33,199 nucleotides of DNA from Chthoniobacterales bacterium (GTDB lineage: Bacteria > Verrucomicrobiota > Verrucomicrobiia > Chthoniobacterales > JACTMZ01): contig VEQL01000030.1 of NCBI GenBank assembly GCA_018883245.1, positions 1 through 33,199 of the forward strand. Direction: 5' to 3'. A model generated the notes under the pieces. It had not been told where the DNA came from and ran no database searches. It was given only the letters and a program-made list of their open reading frames with translations. Numbering within the stretch: the stretch's first letter is position 1; each line of letters begins with the position of its first letter. Positions 1,003 to 7,406 of the stretch are shown here, piece after piece. Both the position numbers and the translations under genes were made by a program.

Positions 1003-2040
1003 TCACTCGCGCGGGTTGGCGACAGCATGAATCACCTCGCCTGAACGCATCTTCCCAATGATCCGCTCAATATCAGCAAGACTGCCTCGGTGCGAGATGA
1101 ATCCGGAGCAATCGATTCGGGCCGAGGCAAGCTGATCCAAGATGCGGGGGATGTCCTTCTCTGGGCGGCTTTGGCCGCCCTCGGATCCGGTGAGAATGCG
1201 ACCAAAATGCAAGGGCAGTGTATGAATGCTGACCCGTTGATTGTGAGGCATCACACCGAAGAGCACGCAGCGTCCGCCACGCAGTTTGGCCAGATCGTAG
1301 GCTGTCTCGATCACTTTCGGATTTCCCGTGCCGTCGATGGTCACGTCGGCCAGACCGCCGAGAATCGCCTTAATCCGCTCCGCGGCGTTTTCGCGCGAGG
1401 CATTGATCTGATGGGTCAGGCCGTATTCCGCTGCCTTGGCCAGTTTGTGGTCATGAAGGTCGACGCCGATGATCGCATTGGCCCCGGCGAGCTTGGCGCC
1501 AAGCATCACACCCAACCCGATGCCCCCTACCCCGAAGATGACGACCGATTCGCCGCGTTGGACTTTCGCGTCGTTGTGGATGATGCCGAATCCAGTGGTC
1601 AGCGTGTCGGCCAACAGGCAGCACAGCTCGAAATCGGTATCCGGTGGGACTTTGGTCAGACGGTTTTCGGAAATGACCGCGTATTTCTGGAACGTGGTGA
1701 TCGGACCGGCGTTCACTTTGGTGCCGTTCCAATCATAGACCGAGCCCCCGGCATCAATCCCCGCTCCCGGACGCCAGTGGCAAACGACGCGGTCGCCCGG
1801 TGCAATGTGGGTCACTTCGGGACCAATCTCGAGGACAATGGCCCCAGCCTCATGACCAAGCAAATGCGGAAGGAATTGGTCGGGACCCTTGACGCCATCG
1901 ATCTCGCCAATCTGAGATCCGCAGACGCGGGTGGCATGGATTTCGACAAGCACTTGCCCGCGTTTGAGCGCAGGCACCTCGACTTCATCGATGACAAGCG
2001 GTTTGCGCTGCTCGACCAAAATGGCAGCGGGTGTTTTCAT
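1003..2040 (-). CDS. Zinc-type medium-chain alcohol/sugar dehydrogenase
   Basis: A 345-residue medium-chain dehydrogenase with an N-terminal GroES-like catalytic domain and a C-terminal Rossmann domain. Cys40, His63 and Glu64 (GHEAG) match catalytic zinc positions. The usual third ligand cysteine position reads ADTLTTG with Asp145, and the four-cysteine structural zinc loop is absent. The nucleotide-binding glycines are GVGGIG at 170-175. I start the protein at the ATG at 2040; an upstream in-frame start at 2079 would add 13 residues read from a repeat. As part of the polysaccharide cluster, the enzyme probably oxidises or reduces a hydroxyl on a sugar or sugar nucleotide; the substrate is unknown. 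The leader carries A-family repeats. A truncated second copy lies at 1-149. Confidence 0.88.
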   Translation of the reverse strand: MKTPAAILVEQRKPLVIDEVEVPALKRGQVLVEIHATRVCGSQIGEIDGVKGPDQFLPHLLGHEAGAIVLEIGPEVTHIAPGDRVVCHWRPGAGIDAGGSVYDWNGTKVNAGPITTFQKYAVISENRLTKVPPDTDFELCCLLADTLTTGFGIIHNDAKVQRGESVVIFGVGGIGLGVMLGAKLAGANAIIGVDLHDHKLAKAAEYGLTHQINASRENAAERIKAILGGLADVTIDGTGNPKVIETAYDLAKLRGGRCVLFGVMPHNQRVSIHTLPLHFGRILTGSEGGQSRPEKDIPRILDQLASARIDCSGFISHRGSLADIERIIGKMRSGEVIHAVANPRE

Positions 2041-2045
2041 GATTC

Positions 2046-2068
2046 TCTCACGGAGGCACGAAGACACC
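2046..2068 (+). repeat. A-family repeat, forward copy 1
   Basis: An imperfect 8-base-period repeat built on CACGGAGA / CACGAAGA-like units (CACGGAGG CACGAAGA CACC). It lies 5 bases upstream of the dehydrogenase start codon, so it is in the mRNA leader of that gene. Related copies follow at 2118-2187, 2236-2306 and 2700-2726. Confidence 0.75.
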
Positions 2069-2117
2069 AAGAGTAGCAATCTGAGGTAACGGCAAACATC
2101 TTCACAGTTTCAGACAC

Positions 2118-2187
2118 TCTGCGTCTCTGTGTCTTTGTGAGAAACACTTTTCCTTACTGCTTTCTCTCACGGAGACACGAAGACACA
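2118..2187. repeat. A-family inverted pair (hairpin unit 1)
   Basis: A reverse-oriented element (CTCTGCGT CTCTGTGT CTTTGTGA, 8-base period) is followed after a pyrimidine-rich spacer by a forward element (CTCACGGAGACACGAAGACAC). Bases 2129-2141 (GTGTCTTTGTGAG) pair with 2166-2178 (CTCACGGAGACAC) as a 13-base stem with two G-U pairs and a 24-base loop. The whole 70-base unit is similar to 2236-2306. Confidence 0.75.
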
Positions 2188-2221
2188 AGAAACGCTAAAT
2201 ACGAACAGACCATAGGTGTTT

Positions 2222-2698
2222 TCAAAGCTTCAAATCTCCAATGCCTTTGTGTCTTTGTGAAAAACCTTCTTCCGAACTGTTTCCTCTTACGGAGGCACGG
2301 GTGCTCAAAGGGATGGGATCCAAAGAGCCATTGATAATGCGAGTGATTCCGTCGCGCATGAGCGCTTCACCGAAGTTCAGCAAGTAACCCAACTTCAACC
2401 CAGTGAGTCGCAAATACGTCAAAAGCTGCTTCTTGTGCGCGGGTGTTACGTGTTCGACCGACTTCAACTCCAAGAGCACTTTTCCCTCCACAATCACATC
2501 TGCGCGAAAGCCCTCGGCAAATCGCTCGCCCTCATATTCGATCGGCACCGCAACCTGCCGTTCCACGCGAAGTCCGCGACGCTCCAGCGCCCGCGCCAAA
2601 GTCACTTCGTAGACGGTCTCAAGAAGACCAGGCCAAAGATCCCGAGGCAGAGCAACCGCACAGTCCACGACAGCGGATCCAATCTCATTCTCGTCCAT
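2222..2698 (-). CDS. GxxExxY family protein (PD-(D/E)XK nuclease-like)
   Basis: A 158-residue protein named for the GLLETVY signature at residues 24-30. The family is placed in the PD-(D/E)XK nuclease superfamily. Here Asp67 (FRADVIVE), Glu77-x-Lys79 (LELKS) and a QxxxY motif at 91-95 are all present, so a nuclease active site is plausible, though no function is established. The ATG at 2698 precedes the standard MDENEIG opening; a longer reading upstream is read from repeat DNA. The usual family C-terminus falls near 2324; the last 33 or so residues are encoded by repeat sequence. The core gene lies between two inverted A-family repeats (2284-2298 and 2711-2725), raising the possibility that gene and repeats form one mobile unit. 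Confidence 0.85.
   Translation of the reverse strand: MDENEIGSAVVDCAVALPRDLWPGLLETVYEVTLARALERRGLRVERQVAVPIEYEGERFAEGFRADVIVEGKVLLELKSVEHVTPAHKKQLLTYLRLTGLKLGYLLNFGEALMRDGITRIINGSLDPIPLSTRASVRGNSSEEGFSQRHKGIGDLKL
2236..2306. repeat. A-family inverted pair (hairpin unit 2)
   Basis: A second copy of the 70-base unit seen at 2118-2187, clearly diverged. Bases 2249-2260 (GTGTCTTTGTGA) still pair fully with 2287-2298 (TTACGGAGGCAC) when G-U pairs are counted, so pairing has survived substitutions in the right arm. The forward arm, 2284-2298, also matches the inverse of 2711-2725 at 13 of 15 positions across the GxxExxY gene. The unit encodes the C-terminal tail of that gene. Confidence 0.7.
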
Positions 2699-2699
2699 C

Positions 2700-2726
2700 T
2701 TCGTGTCTCTGTGCCTCCGCGAGAGT
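2700..2726 (-). repeat. A-family repeat, reverse copy at the right side of the GxxExxY gene
   Basis: This element (GTGCCTCCGCGAGAG at 2711-2725) is the inverse of the left copy at 2284-2298, with 13 of 15 bases matching. It sits 2 bases upstream of the GxxExxY start codon and 8 bases from the methyltransferase fragment at 2734. Confidence 0.7.
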
Positions 2727-2733
2727 CCCCAAT

Positions 2734-2808
2734 CTACTCGAAGTAGATGAAACTGTGGTCGCCGGTGTAGCCGGTTTATTTGAACTACCAGTCCCCGGCG
2801 TCGAAAGC
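2734..2808 (-). pseudogene. Degraded 3' end of a second methyltransferase copy
   Basis: Bases 2734-2794 align with the last 61 bases of the intact methyltransferase gene (3616-3676) with about 10 mismatches. Weaker similarity, needing a small gap, runs to about 2808. The shared C-terminal residues TGYTGDHSFIYFE and the stop codon are recognisable, but a glutamine and a tryptophan codon have become TAA and TAG, so the fragment is dead. Homology begins exactly at the stop codon. The upstream break is within about 6-20 bases of the vapC stop codon. This repeats the layout of the dehydrogenase locus: intact gene, TA module, then a stub of the same gene. Confidence 0.8.
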
Positions 2809-2813
2809 GTGTG

Positions 2814-3251
2814 TTATTTTGCTTGGCGCGTCCTCGCCTCTTTCGCCGGCAACCGCAGCTGTCCAAGGAGATCTCCGGGAATGCTCGTAAGATGCTTGTC
2901 GCGGTATACCAACACGAAACCGTTCGCTTTCGCGCACGCGGCGATCAAAAGATCCGTCAGCGGAATCCGGGCCCCAAGCGCTTCCCGGATCACCAGCGCC
3001 TCGCGGCCGACTTTTTCATCGACCGGGAGAGGATCTCCCAACGCGGCCCGATAGATCGAGAGGATCCGCGCTTTTTCTTTTGCCGTGTAGGTAGAGCGGC
3101 TCAAAAAGATTTCGAACTCGACCCAGGTCAGGATGCAGATGGCCAACTTGTCGCCGGAGGCCTCGAGCAAACGCTCGACCACCTCACACCCGCTCTCTTG
3201 CAACAAGTGGGCAAGCAGTGCGGACGTGTCGATGAGATAGCGCTTTTTCAA
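2814..3251 (-). CDS. vapC: VapC toxin, PIN-domain ribonuclease
   Basis: A 145-residue PIN-domain protein, the toxin half of a VapBC module. PIN toxins are magnesium-dependent RNases that mostly cut tRNA or rRNA. The acidic site is complete: Asp8 (LIDTSALL), Glu45 (TWVEFE), Asp100 (PLTDLLIAA) and Asp118 (VYRDKHL). The start codon overlaps the end of vapB by four bases (ATGA), the usual coupling. The gene ends a few bases from the broken methyltransferase copy. The RNA target cannot be predicted. Nothing suggests the toxin is inactive. Confidence 0.92.
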   Translation of the reverse strand: MKKRYLIDTSALLAHLLQESGCEVVERLLEASGDKLAICILTWVEFEIFLSRSTYTAKEKARILSIYRAALGDPLPVDEKVGREALVIREALGARIPLTDLLIAACAKANGFVLVYRDKHLTSIPGDLLGQLRLPAKEARTRQAK

Positions 3252-3535
3252 ACTTGACGGTCATGCGCCCGCTGCCAAGCGCGATCGGCTTCATACTCGG
3301 CCTTCAGCTTGGCGGCCGCCCTCTTGTTGCCCGTGGCAATTTTCTGTGCTTCGCGAAGCCGCGTCACTGCATCCGGCAACACCCGAGCCACGAGAGTCTT
3401 GTTCTTGGAGTCGGCTAGCCACACCAATCTGGTGCCGGTCTTTATACCGTGGCGCCGCGCGAGCACCGCGGGAATGGTGGTTTGCAGTTTACCTGTCACC
3501 AATGAACTTGGAAGGAGCGTGCTGCTGGAATCCAT
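3248..3535 (-). CDS. vapB: VapB antitoxin, AbrB/MazE-type DNA-binding fold
   Basis: A 95-residue antitoxin with an N-terminal SpoVT/AbrB swapped-hairpin segment (GKLQTTIPAVLARRHGIKTG, roughly residues 15-34) that would bind its own promoter. A charged helical C-terminus probably wraps around VapC. I use the ATG at 3535; a TTG at 3556 in the same frame would add seven residues. The stop overlaps vapC by four bases. The gene begins about 80 bases after the methyltransferase stop. The 3536-3615 gap shows no clear promoter, so the module may be read from the long cluster transcript as well as its own start. Confidence 0.88.
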   Translation of the reverse strand: MDSSSTLLPSSLVTGKLQTTIPAVLARRHGIKTGTRLVWLADSKNKTLVARVLPDAVTRLREAQKIATGNKRAAAKLKAEYEADRAWQRAHDRQV

Positions 3536-3615
3536 ATCAAGGAAATTATTATTCAAGGATTACGGGTGTCAAGGGGGCCGCCTTAAGCCAACAGCTCATG
3601 CGCCCCGCTCCACGC

Positions 3616-4284
3616 TTATTCAAAGTAAATAAAGCTGTGGTCGCCGGTGTAACCGGTTTGTTTGAACCACCATTCCCACTCATCCGGGGCGAAAAAGGCG
3701 CGGCAGGTCAGCTGCCAATAGAGCAGATTGGCTTTCTCTGATTCATTCCGCCAGCTCTCGACACAAAGGTAACGGTGTTTCTTGCCGACCCGCATCATTT
3801 CACGGAGCGCACGGTCGAGATCGTAGCAAGGCAGGTTGTGAAGCGTGTTGATGGAAAATACAAAGTCGAATTCGCCGTCGGCAAAGGGCACCTCGGACGC
3901 TTTACCATGCACCATGCGGTCCTTCACCTCGGGCTTGGCGTGGTCGATGGCATACGAACTGATTTCCAGACCGGCAACCTCAATTCCGGGGACGGCTTGG
4001 GTGAGATCGTAGAGCAGGAAACCCTTCCCGCAGCCGATATCGAGGACCTTGTCGCCGGCCTTGAGTCCGTAGTGTTTCGCCATCAGGTCCGCGACCTTGC
4101 GCCAGCGTCCGTCGTAATTCATGCCGCCGTAGCCGGTCCGACGGTCGCCATCCCAATATTCGACGTCCCATTTCAGCGCCAGTTCGGCAGCCTTGGCCTT
4201 CGGGTATTCAGGATCGTTGACCCTAGCGAGGTAGTCGCGCGTTGTCGCCTTGTGGATCGGCGCGATGAAATCGACGTAGGACAT
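3616..4284 (-). CDS. Class I SAM-dependent methyltransferase
   Basis: A 222-residue methyltransferase. Motif I is VLDIGCGKG at residues 80-88, and the Rossmann core continues through GLEISSYAI and the acidic FADGEFDFVFS segment. The roughly 75-residue N-terminal cap contains YWDGDRRTGYGGMNYDGRW, which may help bind the substrate. In a polysaccharide cluster the likely job is methylation of a sugar or sugar nucleotide, but the acceptor is not known. The protein ends in the aromatic-rich WEWWFKQTGYTGDHSFIYFE tail that is duplicated as a pseudogene at 2734. The leader (4285-4324) consists of a C-family repeat, and no Shine-Dalgarno sequence is apparent. Confidence 0.88.
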   Translation of the reverse strand: MSYVDFIAPIHKATTRDYLARVNDPEYPKAKAAELALKWDVEYWDGDRRTGYGGMNYDGRWRKVADLMAKHYGLKAGDKVLDIGCGKGFLLYDLTQAVPGIEVAGLEISSYAIDHAKPEVKDRMVHGKASEVPFADGEFDFVFSINTLHNLPCYDLDRALREMMRVGKKHRYLCVESWRNESEKANLLYWQLTCRAFFAPDEWEWWFKQTGYTGDHSFIYFE

Positions 4285-6036: not shown

Positions 6037-6072
6037 GAAAAAGTTAAAAGGCGGAATGCAAAGTGAAGAATT
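6037..6072 (+). repeat. C-family repeat, forward copy (left side of the bIVP gene)
   Basis: A degenerate AATGCAAAGTGAAGAA-type element that contains the bIVP stop codon at its right edge and ends one base from the start codon of the transketolase C subunit. Its inverse lies at 6419-6450, on the other side of the bIVP gene. Confidence 0.7.
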
Positions 6073-6421
6073 ACTGCCTGCGGGCGGTCTTGATGCTGGA
6101 AACGAGTATAGCAGTAATCTCACCTGTTTCTTCCAGCAATGGTTGCAGTCTTCTCGGCGAAACCAAGGATTCCTCAGACAGGAGTTCCAACCAATACGCC
6201 GACTCACTGGCCTCCTTAAGCGAATCCCCCAGCTTGGCGATAAATTCGGCCTTACTGCGCGAACGCATTGCTTCCCGGTAGTTCGCCCCGATGGATGTGC
6301 CGCTTCGCAACAATTGATGTCCTAGCACTTGCGCAGCCCCGCTTCGCGGCAAGGCGGAATACAAGCGAATAACGCGGCGCGCATACTCCTTAGTTCGCGC
6401 TTCCAGAACTTTCTCAGACAT
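6071..6421 (-). CDS. Four-helix-bundle protein (bIVP / 23S intervening-sequence-protein family)
   Basis: A 116-residue all-helical protein of the bIVP (S23/intervening-sequence protein) family, typified by LLRSGTSIGANYREAMRSRS around residues 38-57, followed by FIAKLGDSLKEASESAYWLELL. Relatives occur inside 23S rRNA intervening sequences, and the Avd protein of diversity-generating retroelements shares the fold, but freestanding members have no settled role; nucleic-acid binding is likely from their basic faces. The gene interrupts the split transketolase, between its N and C subunits. Inverted C-family repeats lie at both ends, and the start codon itself is inside one. No reverse transcriptase or rRNA gene is in this window. 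Confidence 0.88.
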   Translation of the reverse strand: MSEKVLEARTKEYARRVIRLYSALPRSGAAQVLGHQLLRSGTSIGANYREAMRSRSKAEFIAKLGDSLKEASESAYWLELLSEESLVSPRRLQPLLEETGEITAILVSSIKTARRQ

Positions 6422-6450
6422 TTTGCATTTTGCATTCCGAACTCATCATT
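6419..6450 (-). repeat. C-family repeat, reverse copy (right side of the bIVP gene)
   Basis: Two tandem TTTTGCA-type units followed by TTCCGAACTCATCATT. The repeat spans the bIVP start codon and the stop codon of the transketolase N subunit (6446-6448), filling the whole space between the genes. Confidence 0.7.
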
Positions 6451-7270
6451 TCCCCAGCAGTTCTTCCCTCGCGGCAGCGAGCTCCTCAGCGCTGGGGATG
6501 CGGTAGTGCCAGTTGTTGTCATCCTCCATGAATGACACGCCGCGGCCTTTGATCGTGTGGGCCACAATGGCCAAGGGTTTGGTGCGGTCGGGCAATTCGG
6601 CACAGGCAAGCGCGGCGCGGATCTCGGCAAAGTCGTGGCCGTCCACTTCGTAGCTTTCCCAGCCGAAAGCCTCCCACTTGTCGCGCAGCGGAGCCAAAGC
6701 CATGACTTCCTCACTGCGACCGGTAGCCTGCCATTTGTTGTAGTCGACCAACACCGTCAGGGACCCGAGATTTTGCGCCGCGGCAAACATGGCCGCTTCC
6801 CACACGCTTCCCTCGTTGCATTCGCCATCACTGAGTAGCACTACCGTCCGGTAATTTTGCTTTTGTATCCGCGCGGCGAGCGCCATGCCGATACCGACAG
6901 AAAGACCATGCCCGAGCGATCCGGTCGCCCACTCGACACCGGGTGCACAGTTTGGAGCGGGTTGTTCGGCCAGTGCGGCTCCGTCCTTGCCGTATTCTTC
7001 GAGGAATTGCTTCGGAAAGAAACCGCGCTCGCACAGCGTGACGTAAAGCGCCGGTGCCGCGTGGCCTTTGCTCAGGATGAAGCGATCGCGATCAGCCGCG
7101 TCCGCTTTTTTCGGATCGATGCGCAGGAAGTCCCAGTAGAGCGCAACGAGCAGATCGATGCATGAGAGCGATGATCCCAAATGAGGCGTCTTGGCCCGAT
7201 GGGACAGACCGATGGCATCCACGCGAAGATTCGACGCGGCGCTCTGAAGTTCTTCGAAGGAACTACTCAA
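6446..7270 (-). CDS. Transketolase, N-terminal (diphosphate-binding) subunit
   Basis: A 274-residue protein covering the thiamine-diphosphate-binding domain of transketolase. The cofactor motif runs from SDGECNEG at 147-154 to the asparagine of DYNKWQ near 178. His30, His70 and the GSLGHGLSVG loop at 117-126 match the donor and cofactor pocket. No ATG is suitably placed; the protein appears to start at a TTG (7270), preceded by C-family repeat DNA rather than a Shine-Dalgarno sequence. It should pair with the subunit at 5115-6035. The gene follows the nucleotidyltransferase-kinase fusion and ends inside a repeat at 6446. Confidence 0.9.
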   Translation of the reverse strand: MSSSFEELQSAASNLRVDAIGLSHRAKTPHLGSSLSCIDLLVALYWDFLRIDPKKADAADRDRFILSKGHAAPALYVTLCERGFFPKQFLEEYGKDGAALAEQPAPNCAPGVEWATGSLGHGLSVGIGMALAARIQKQNYRTVVLLSDGECNEGSVWEAAMFAAAQNLGSLTVLVDYNKWQATGRSEEVMALAPLRDKWEAFGWESYEVDGHDFAEIRAALACAELPDRTKPLAIVAHTIKGRGVSFMEDDNNWHYRIPSAEELAAAREELLGK

Positions 7271-7276
7271 GGCGGC

Positions 7277-7406
7277 GAAATGAAGAGTGCAAAATGCAAA
7301 ATGAAGAACTCAGAAGACTCGGAAAAGTGACGAATGCAAAACGTAGAATGATGAATTCAGGAAATCCCCATTTTGCATTCTGCATTTTTAGTTCTGCACT
7401 TTCTCA
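7277..7406. repeat. C-family repeat cluster (two forward copies, one reverse copy)
   Basis: The gap between the fusion enzyme and the transketolase N subunit is entirely repeat. There is a forward copy at 7277-7312 (with TGCAAAATGCAAAATG), a second, more diverged one at 7323-7360, and a reverse copy at 7369-7406 (CATTTTGCATTCTGCA). The forward and reverse copies could pair into a long hairpin. The stop codon of the fusion gene (7404-7406) lies at the end of the reverse copy. Confidence 0.75.

Follow-up and report, generated by a model that had tools for sequence, protein, structure and literature searches.

The stretch of DNA analysed here (the window) comprises 33,199 nucleotides and is a complete contig, positions 1 to 33,199 of VEQL01000030.1 of a Chthoniobacterales bacterium (assembly GCA_018883245.1). 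In this window an alcohol dehydrogenase-like (ADH-like) gene (1003-2039) and a methyltransferase-like gene (3616-4284), both on the minus strand, are separated by a stretch (2040-3615) that is absent in two relatives (G202 and G225). This stretch contains a GxxExxY gene (PF13366/TIGR04256; 2222-2698, minus strand), which starts with an ATG at 2698-2696 and encodes 158 amino acids, and whose conserved PD-(D/E)XK domain lies at about 2336-2686. The gene is accompanied by two inverted arms, each composed of about three copies of a 7-mer of the CACRGAG/CACGAAG type joined by linkers of 1-3 nt. The upstream arm (2699-2725, minus strand; CTCTCGCGGAGGCACAGAGACACGAAG on the gene strand) has the units CGCGGAG, CACAGAG, and CACGAAG, the last of which abuts the ATG; the inverted downstream arm (2283-2310, plus strand; CCTCTTACGGAGGCACGGGTGCTCAAAG) has a degenerate third unit. 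Two gene-less arm pairs, one at 2043-2145 (CTCTCACGGAGGCACGAAGACAC ... GCGTCTCTGTGTCTTTGTGAGAA) and the other at 2162-2263 (TTCTCTCACGGAGACACGAAGACACAAG ... GCCTTTGTGTCTTTGTGAAAA), directly adjoin this gene unit and repeat each other at a spacing of about 120 nt.

An earlier note on this DNA had described inverted copies matching at 13 of 15 bases that bracket the conserved core of the gene. The match is exactly as described (2284-2298 against the reverse complement of 2711-2725; CTCTTACGGAGGCAC / CTCTCGCGGAGGCAC) and is equalled in none of 100 shuffles of the two short flanks; the full arms exceed these 15-nt stretches. The bracketing holds for the conserved domain and not for the entire ORF, because the reading frame crosses the downstream arm and ends only at 2222; in two congeners, too, the ORF crosses this arm. 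The upstream arm pairs in addition with 2045-2072 (28 nt, 86%), with a local alignment score that is equalled by 2 of 1000 shuffles, and the score of the locus for six 7-mers is 76, compared with a shuffle maximum of 69. Within the 2.9-Mb source genome, an iteron run with at most one mismatch is found in six places, five of which are at the window locus; the sixth (contig C36) is a solo arm pair. A second PF13366 match in this genome (contig C42) lies between arms of another type (TCACGCAACGTTCGCCAAGGACGCCAAGG ... GCGACCGTGGCGAACTTTGCGTGA) and was rejected as a second intact GxxExxY gene, being an internally deleted remnant. When the window is compared directly with congener G200, the upstream arms are alike at 22 of 27 positions although the synonymous sites of the gene are saturated (71% differ; omega 0.03), which argues that the arms are under constraint.

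Profile searches place the window protein in the GxxExxY family well above the curated cut-offs, with 123.7 bits for PF13366 (cut-off 22; 6.5e-36) and 125.5 bits for TIGR04256 (cut-off 35; 1.3e-36); PF13366 is the sole Pfam family in the protein, and the unit contains this one ORF and no recognised transposase. The protein has the D...ExK signature and the core fold of the PD-(D/E)XK superfamily. The residues that had been singled out from the sequence, Asp67, Glu77-x-Lys79, and QxxxY, are indeed present as D67, E77-x-K79, and Q91xxxY95 (ATG = 1), and E28, D68, E78, K80, and Q92 are invariant among 48 aligned sequences (the alignment numbers being the ATG numbers + 1). A search by sequence for a solved relative yielded none, the best match being Cas4 (4r5q, E 0.22). 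In a structure model of the GxxExxY protein (pLDDT 82.7), the closest solved fold is that of Cas4 SSO0001 (Z 9.5, rmsd 4.1 over 108 residues), and Hjc ranks lower among the matches (Z about 6.8); a Cas4/Hjc-like fold is common, and this modelled likeness indicates chemistry at most. The nuclease core is under purifying selection, with an omega of about 0.03 relative to two congeners (dS saturated). In the window copy, two of the conserved residues close to the GxxExxY motif are no longer present (H to P, and the first G of GPG to W, giving PRDLWPGLLE where the congeners have HRDLGPGLLE), and this copy may be ageing or decaying.

The arrangement of a GxxExxY gene between inverted arms is general. 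Three 7-mers per arm (score of at least 75) are found at 83% of 143 GxxExxY loci and in 0% of shuffles, and none of 18 other genes in the same loci reaches this six-iteron score; the strong enrichment of these genes for flanking period-8/9 inverted repeats is what the earlier note had proposed to look for. The layout is present in loci of 18 or more phyla of bacteria and archaea, including Methanobacteriota. Flanks were also aligned for 118 loci, drawn from Verrucomicrobiota and other phyla and from plasmids and viral contigs. In 78% of these loci the upstream flank matches the reverse complement of the downstream flank with a score of at least 30, compared with 10% for pairs of flanks taken from different loci and 0% for a reversed control. 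A chance origin of the arms is rejected by the shuffles, the cross-locus pairs, the reversed controls, and the other genes.

The unit usually has the form C-R-C-N-R-A-D (106 of 119), as in CACAGAG, CACGGAG, CGCAAAG, CACGAAG, CGCAGAG, CACGAAA, CACGAAT, and CGCCAAG; ACAGGAT and AACGGAA are units of another form. Between the two arms of one locus the units are 90% identical but the linkers only 50% (35-42% is expected from composition), and at 86 of 106 loci the two arms share one pattern of linker lengths. This combination, units that agree, linkers that agree much less, and a spacing that is kept, is as for iterons that are read by a protein. Almost without exception, the inner spacing is at least as long as the outer one, and the outer edge of the arm is mostly AAC or CAC. 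The median distance from the upstream arm to the start codon is 9 nt, and that from the stop codon to the downstream arm is 5.5 nt.

The family is multi-copy (up to 12 genes per genome) and patchy (75 of 108 genera). It was rejected as phage or plasmid cargo, since it is almost absent from both: 5 of 72,556 plasmid records carry it, and a pattern-based scan of 2.9 million viral contigs, which detects only some relatives, found two loci. On the protein tree of genome loci with a named phylum there are 29 changes of phylum (minimum 17; shuffled 44), so horizontal movement of these genes occurs to some extent but is not free.

The sequence of the unit varies with the protein, as had been predicted. 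Unit distance is correlated with protein distance (Mantel r 0.48; permutation maximum 0.165), and the correlation is unchanged after removal of flank GC; host base composition is rejected as its cause, given that unit distance is unrelated to flank GC (rho 0.01). Position 7 of the unit changes 4 times on the protein tree, compared with at least 16 times when the labels are shuffled. Several unit types can be present in one genome (CACGAAA, CACGGAA, CGCGGAT, and CACGACG in G122), and a test of co-variation inside single genomes, made on 37 pairs, gave no more than a suggestive result (rho 0.30, p 0.07). Because the arms are physically linked to the gene and inherited with it, co-variation alone is no proof of recognition, and could in part be plain linkage.

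Arm pairs are also found without a gene, and these depend on the presence of a GxxExxY gene in the genome. Among Verrucomicrobiota, the exact pair CACAGAG-N1-2-CACAGAG is present in 57 of 105 genomes that have the gene and in 1 of 90 that lack it, with 803 and 5 copies, respectively (36 and 3 for the reversed pattern); a genus-level table gives 43/32 for genera with the gene against 1/32 for those without (Fisher p 2e-8). The repeats are thus far from being equally common in genomes without the gene, an outcome that would have spoken against the original proposal. An independent unit, CACGAAW, behaves similarly, with 511 copies in genomes that have the gene and 23 in those that lack it, and with three or more copies in 35 genomes of the first kind and 2 of the second. 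Both units tested, CACAGAG and CACGAAW, are absent from some genomes with the gene, and among the genomes without it, copies are held by one (G071) for CACAGAG and by 15 of 90, mostly as single copies, for CACGAAW.

The gene-less pairs can be numerous. In G125, a genome from the same order as the source, there are 50 exact hits and 4 genes. Most of the hits are pairs without a gene, which read TTGAC-CACAGAG-GA-CACAGAG-AG-CACAGAG, then a loop, then the inverted arm, and whose loops differ and are unrelated to each other. The genes sampled in G125 have CACGGAG or CACGAAA arms and the scattered pairs are mostly CACAGAG; consequently, the match between solo pairs and resident gene is loose. In G015 the dispersed gene-less copies are nearly identical and number about ten or more, and their boundaries are not uniform. 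In G051 two internally deleted relatives of one GxxExxY unit are found at other places (90-95% identity), with the similarity running from the arm onward.

Comparison of orthologous sites reveals both occupied and empty states, in support of the suggestion that gene plus repeats is a mobile unit. The ADH-like and methyltransferase-like genes abut in congener G202 and in a relative from the same order, G225. At this junction two other congeners, G200 and G197, have one arm pair and a GxxExxY unit only, and G196 has several arm pairs of the CACGGAT type together with another, different GxxExxY gene whose arms are of that type. Within the G125 genus, 3 of 6 arm pairs examined clearly have no counterpart at the orthologous site of a congener (L311 in G276, L327 in G272, and L322 in G279 and G282), and for one more, L320, several congeners have either a reduced pair or none; at one site in this genus the arms are of the CACAGAG type in two species and of the CACGGAG type in two others. 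(The intergenic position of the G125 pairs was judged from congener alignments, ORF overlap being uninformative owing to spurious antisense ORFs.) In Sphingomonas parapaucimobilis a unit lies between fabD and fabG, and in Bacteroides finegoldii between radA and the next gene, which encodes a FAD-protein; in both cases the two genes adjoin in relatives. No target-site duplication is readable at the junctions compared in the source's own genus and the G125 genus, where the divergence of the flanks could hide one.

Taken together, these observations are, in our judgement, probably explained by a mobile unit, made up of the gene and its arms, whose nuclease reads the iterons and processes the DNA that the arms bound, and by which gene-less pairs are moved in trans. 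The minimal unit would measure about 450 bp and have the layout 5' TTAAC-CACAGAG-n-CACAGAG-n-CACAGAG-ATG ... stop ... inverted, with inward-facing arms of about three 7-bp iterons and 1-3-nt linkers. The protein, which is a minimal nuclease of the PD-(D/E)XK superfamily and has a Cas4/Hjc-like fold, would most likely recognise the iteron sequence carried by its own unit, and would cut or process the DNA between the two inverted arms either as duplex or as an extruded hairpin; the segment would then be copied, or cut and pasted, into intergenic gaps. Units that bear the gene would be the autonomous form, and gene-less arm pairs, with their internal deletions and decayed loops, the non-autonomous form, spread in trans as REPINs are with RAYTs. 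Different proteins would use different 7-mers, which would lead to several families of units side by side in one genome.

The main rival, which we consider unlikely, holds that the arm pairs are miniature elements spread by another enzyme and that the GxxExxY gene is a retained passenger, kept for example because it protects or resolves hairpins. The mover could then be an unlinked transposase, or host replication and recombination acting at palindromes. A Hjc/Cas4-like fold could serve to resolve hairpins or cruciforms, pairs without a gene are far more numerous than genes (as the 50 hits and 4 genes of G125 illustrate), and the repeats do occur in a few genomes without the gene. Such a passenger, however, would have no need of arms, and yet more than 80% of the genes, in many phyla, lie inside them; moreover, the sequence of the unit tracks the protein, and very few repeats are found outside the genomes that have the gene (803 copies against 5).

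It is less likely still that the arms are RNA or operator elements, serving for autoregulation, with the protein bound to the iterons, or for pairing of the 5' and 3' ends of the message, with the scattered pairs being a regulon or transcript-end elements. The closeness of the upstream arm to the start codon and of the downstream arm to the stop codon (medians of 9 and 5.5 nt) would suit this, as would the location of pairs in intergenic gaps, often within operons, and the strong single-stranded folds given by CACAGAG pairs; orthologous hairpins in which both arms have a different unit type are equally compatible with a constraint on the hairpin. Against it, linker length is kept but linker complementarity is not, congeners differ by gains and losses of pairs at sites upstream of unrelated genes, and near-identical dispersed copies together with internal deletions are typical of mobile DNA. 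No known structured RNA family is matched: Rfam covariance models gave no hit up to E 1 in 1900-3000. Finally, it is very improbable that the protein is a homing-type selfish nuclease that cuts gene-less pairs, its arms being target sites, rather than transposon ends, into which repair copies the gene-bearing version: the nuclease fold, the placement of the window unit next to two consecutive gene-less pairs of its own type, and the different gene family among several hairpins at the G196 junction are in keeping with homing, but the G202 and G225 sites, like those of other units, are fully empty with no repeat at all, which argues that the arms arrive too, and the loops of the G125 gene-less pairs are mutually unrelated.

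The mobile unit favoured here is closest in organization to REPIN/RAYT (TnpA-REP) systems, in which a single small DNA-processing gene is flanked by inverted palindromic repeats, the repeat type is tied to the protein, and gene-less inverted pairs are dispersed between genes in greater number than the gene, as is found here. RAYT, however, is a Y1 HUH single-strand transposase, and the GxxExxY protein is a PD-(D/E)XK nuclease with no HUH domain; consequently, the GxxExxY unit is a functional analogue of REPIN/RAYT and not a member. The ends also differ, being 7-mer triplets here and REP hairpins with a tetranucleotide guide there, and GxxExxY is found in many more phyla, with several genes having different units in one genome. 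Insertion sequences with terminal inverted repeats, and MITEs, share with the unit a gene between inverted ends, internally deleted non-autonomous copies, and presence or absence at orthologous sites, all of which were observed; in contrast, the GxxExxY unit is without a DDE, HUH, or tyrosine/serine recombinase, its ends are iterated 7-mers matched in spacing, and no target-site duplication is seen at its diverged junctions. With the Cas4/RecB-family and Hjc nucleases, its closest solved folds, the protein shares the PD-(D/E)XK core and the QxxxY motif; unlike them, it has about 120 amino acids and its own flanking repeats, with no Cas1/Cas2 within the unit. The GxxExxY alignment has no invariant or nearly invariant cysteine that could correspond to the four-cysteine Fe-S cluster of Cas4, and the PADLOC Cas4 match of the protein has an E of only 0.026. 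The nuclease superfamily is used in transposition by TnsA and other PD-(D/E)XK transposase subunits; TnsA partners with the DDE protein TnsB, whereas the GxxExxY unit contains no partner gene. We know of no stand-alone PD-(D/E)XK transposase.

The gene and its repeats have the appearance of a minimal mobile DNA element of a kind not described before. In the open-access literature searched, which takes in few subscription journals and bioRxiv preprints, there is no description of the gene-repeat link; GxxExxY is mentioned in passing in two papers and PF13366 in one, and the repeat strings only as incidental primers. The broader proposition, which seems to us a real possibility though somewhat short of an even chance, is that these are autonomous mobile elements of many phyla, in which a 120-amino-acid PD-(D/E)XK nuclease that reads 7-bp iteron arrays is the sole transposition enzyme, with many mutually different protein-iteron specificities side by side in a genome, and that they drive the spread of intergenic hairpin repeats. 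If so, a transposition-like system would be added whose basis is a nuclease fold that is not known to work by itself. The common but uncharacterised GxxExxY family gains a testable role, a possible origin is offered for very widespread, unexplained intergenic repeats (period-8/9 runs of, for example, CTCTGTG or TTCGTG), and proteins with different 7-bp specificities would form a natural library of small, sequence-specific DNA-processing enzymes.

Several further observations concern GxxExxY genes and related repeats elsewhere. One locus of G051 (L205, contig C30) has two GxxExxY genes separated by about 0.8 kb, of which one is nested among CGGAATT-type repeats. At another (L057; contig C32 of G139), a long perfect palindrome of a different repeat type, GTTACGCGATTTTGACAAATGG..., is found on both sides of the GxxExxY gene, inside a long direct repeat. 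A primer directed at a capsule promoter of Bacteroides fragilis (PMC3090145) has AACTCTGTGTTCTCTGTGGTG at its end, which resembles an iteron arm and on which the paper makes no comment.

The junction between the ADH-like and methyltransferase-like genes has other contents as well. A 61-nt direct repeat (2735-2795 and 3617-3677; 85%), a copy of the 3' end of the methyltransferase-like gene, flanks a toxin-antitoxin pair consisting of a PIN gene (2814-3251) and a MazE-like gene (3248-3556). In G200 and G197 the 61 nt are single and the PIN/MazE-like pair is absent, as if the pair had arrived with a duplication. Varied toxin-antitoxin-like genes, iteron hairpins, and GxxExxY genes are found at this junction in congeners (L229, L230, L231, L232), and the junction (2040-3615 in the window) is an insertion hot spot.

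Other repeats are present in the window. A 149-nt direct repeat (1-149 and 1292-1440; 89%) comprises part of the ADH-like gene; its copy at the contig end, which adjoins ParE-like (179-466) and VapB-like (669-917) genes, is likely a second, partial copy of that gene. Another family of short intergenic repeats, of the GAATGCAAAATGCAAAATGAAGAA type with its inverse, is found near gene starts at 6041-6076, 6415-6455, and 7263-7393, and a similar AAAACTTAA type precedes genes in G125 and its congeners. Close to the other contig end (33140-33171), there is a perfect tandem repeat of CAACCCT in 4.6 copies.
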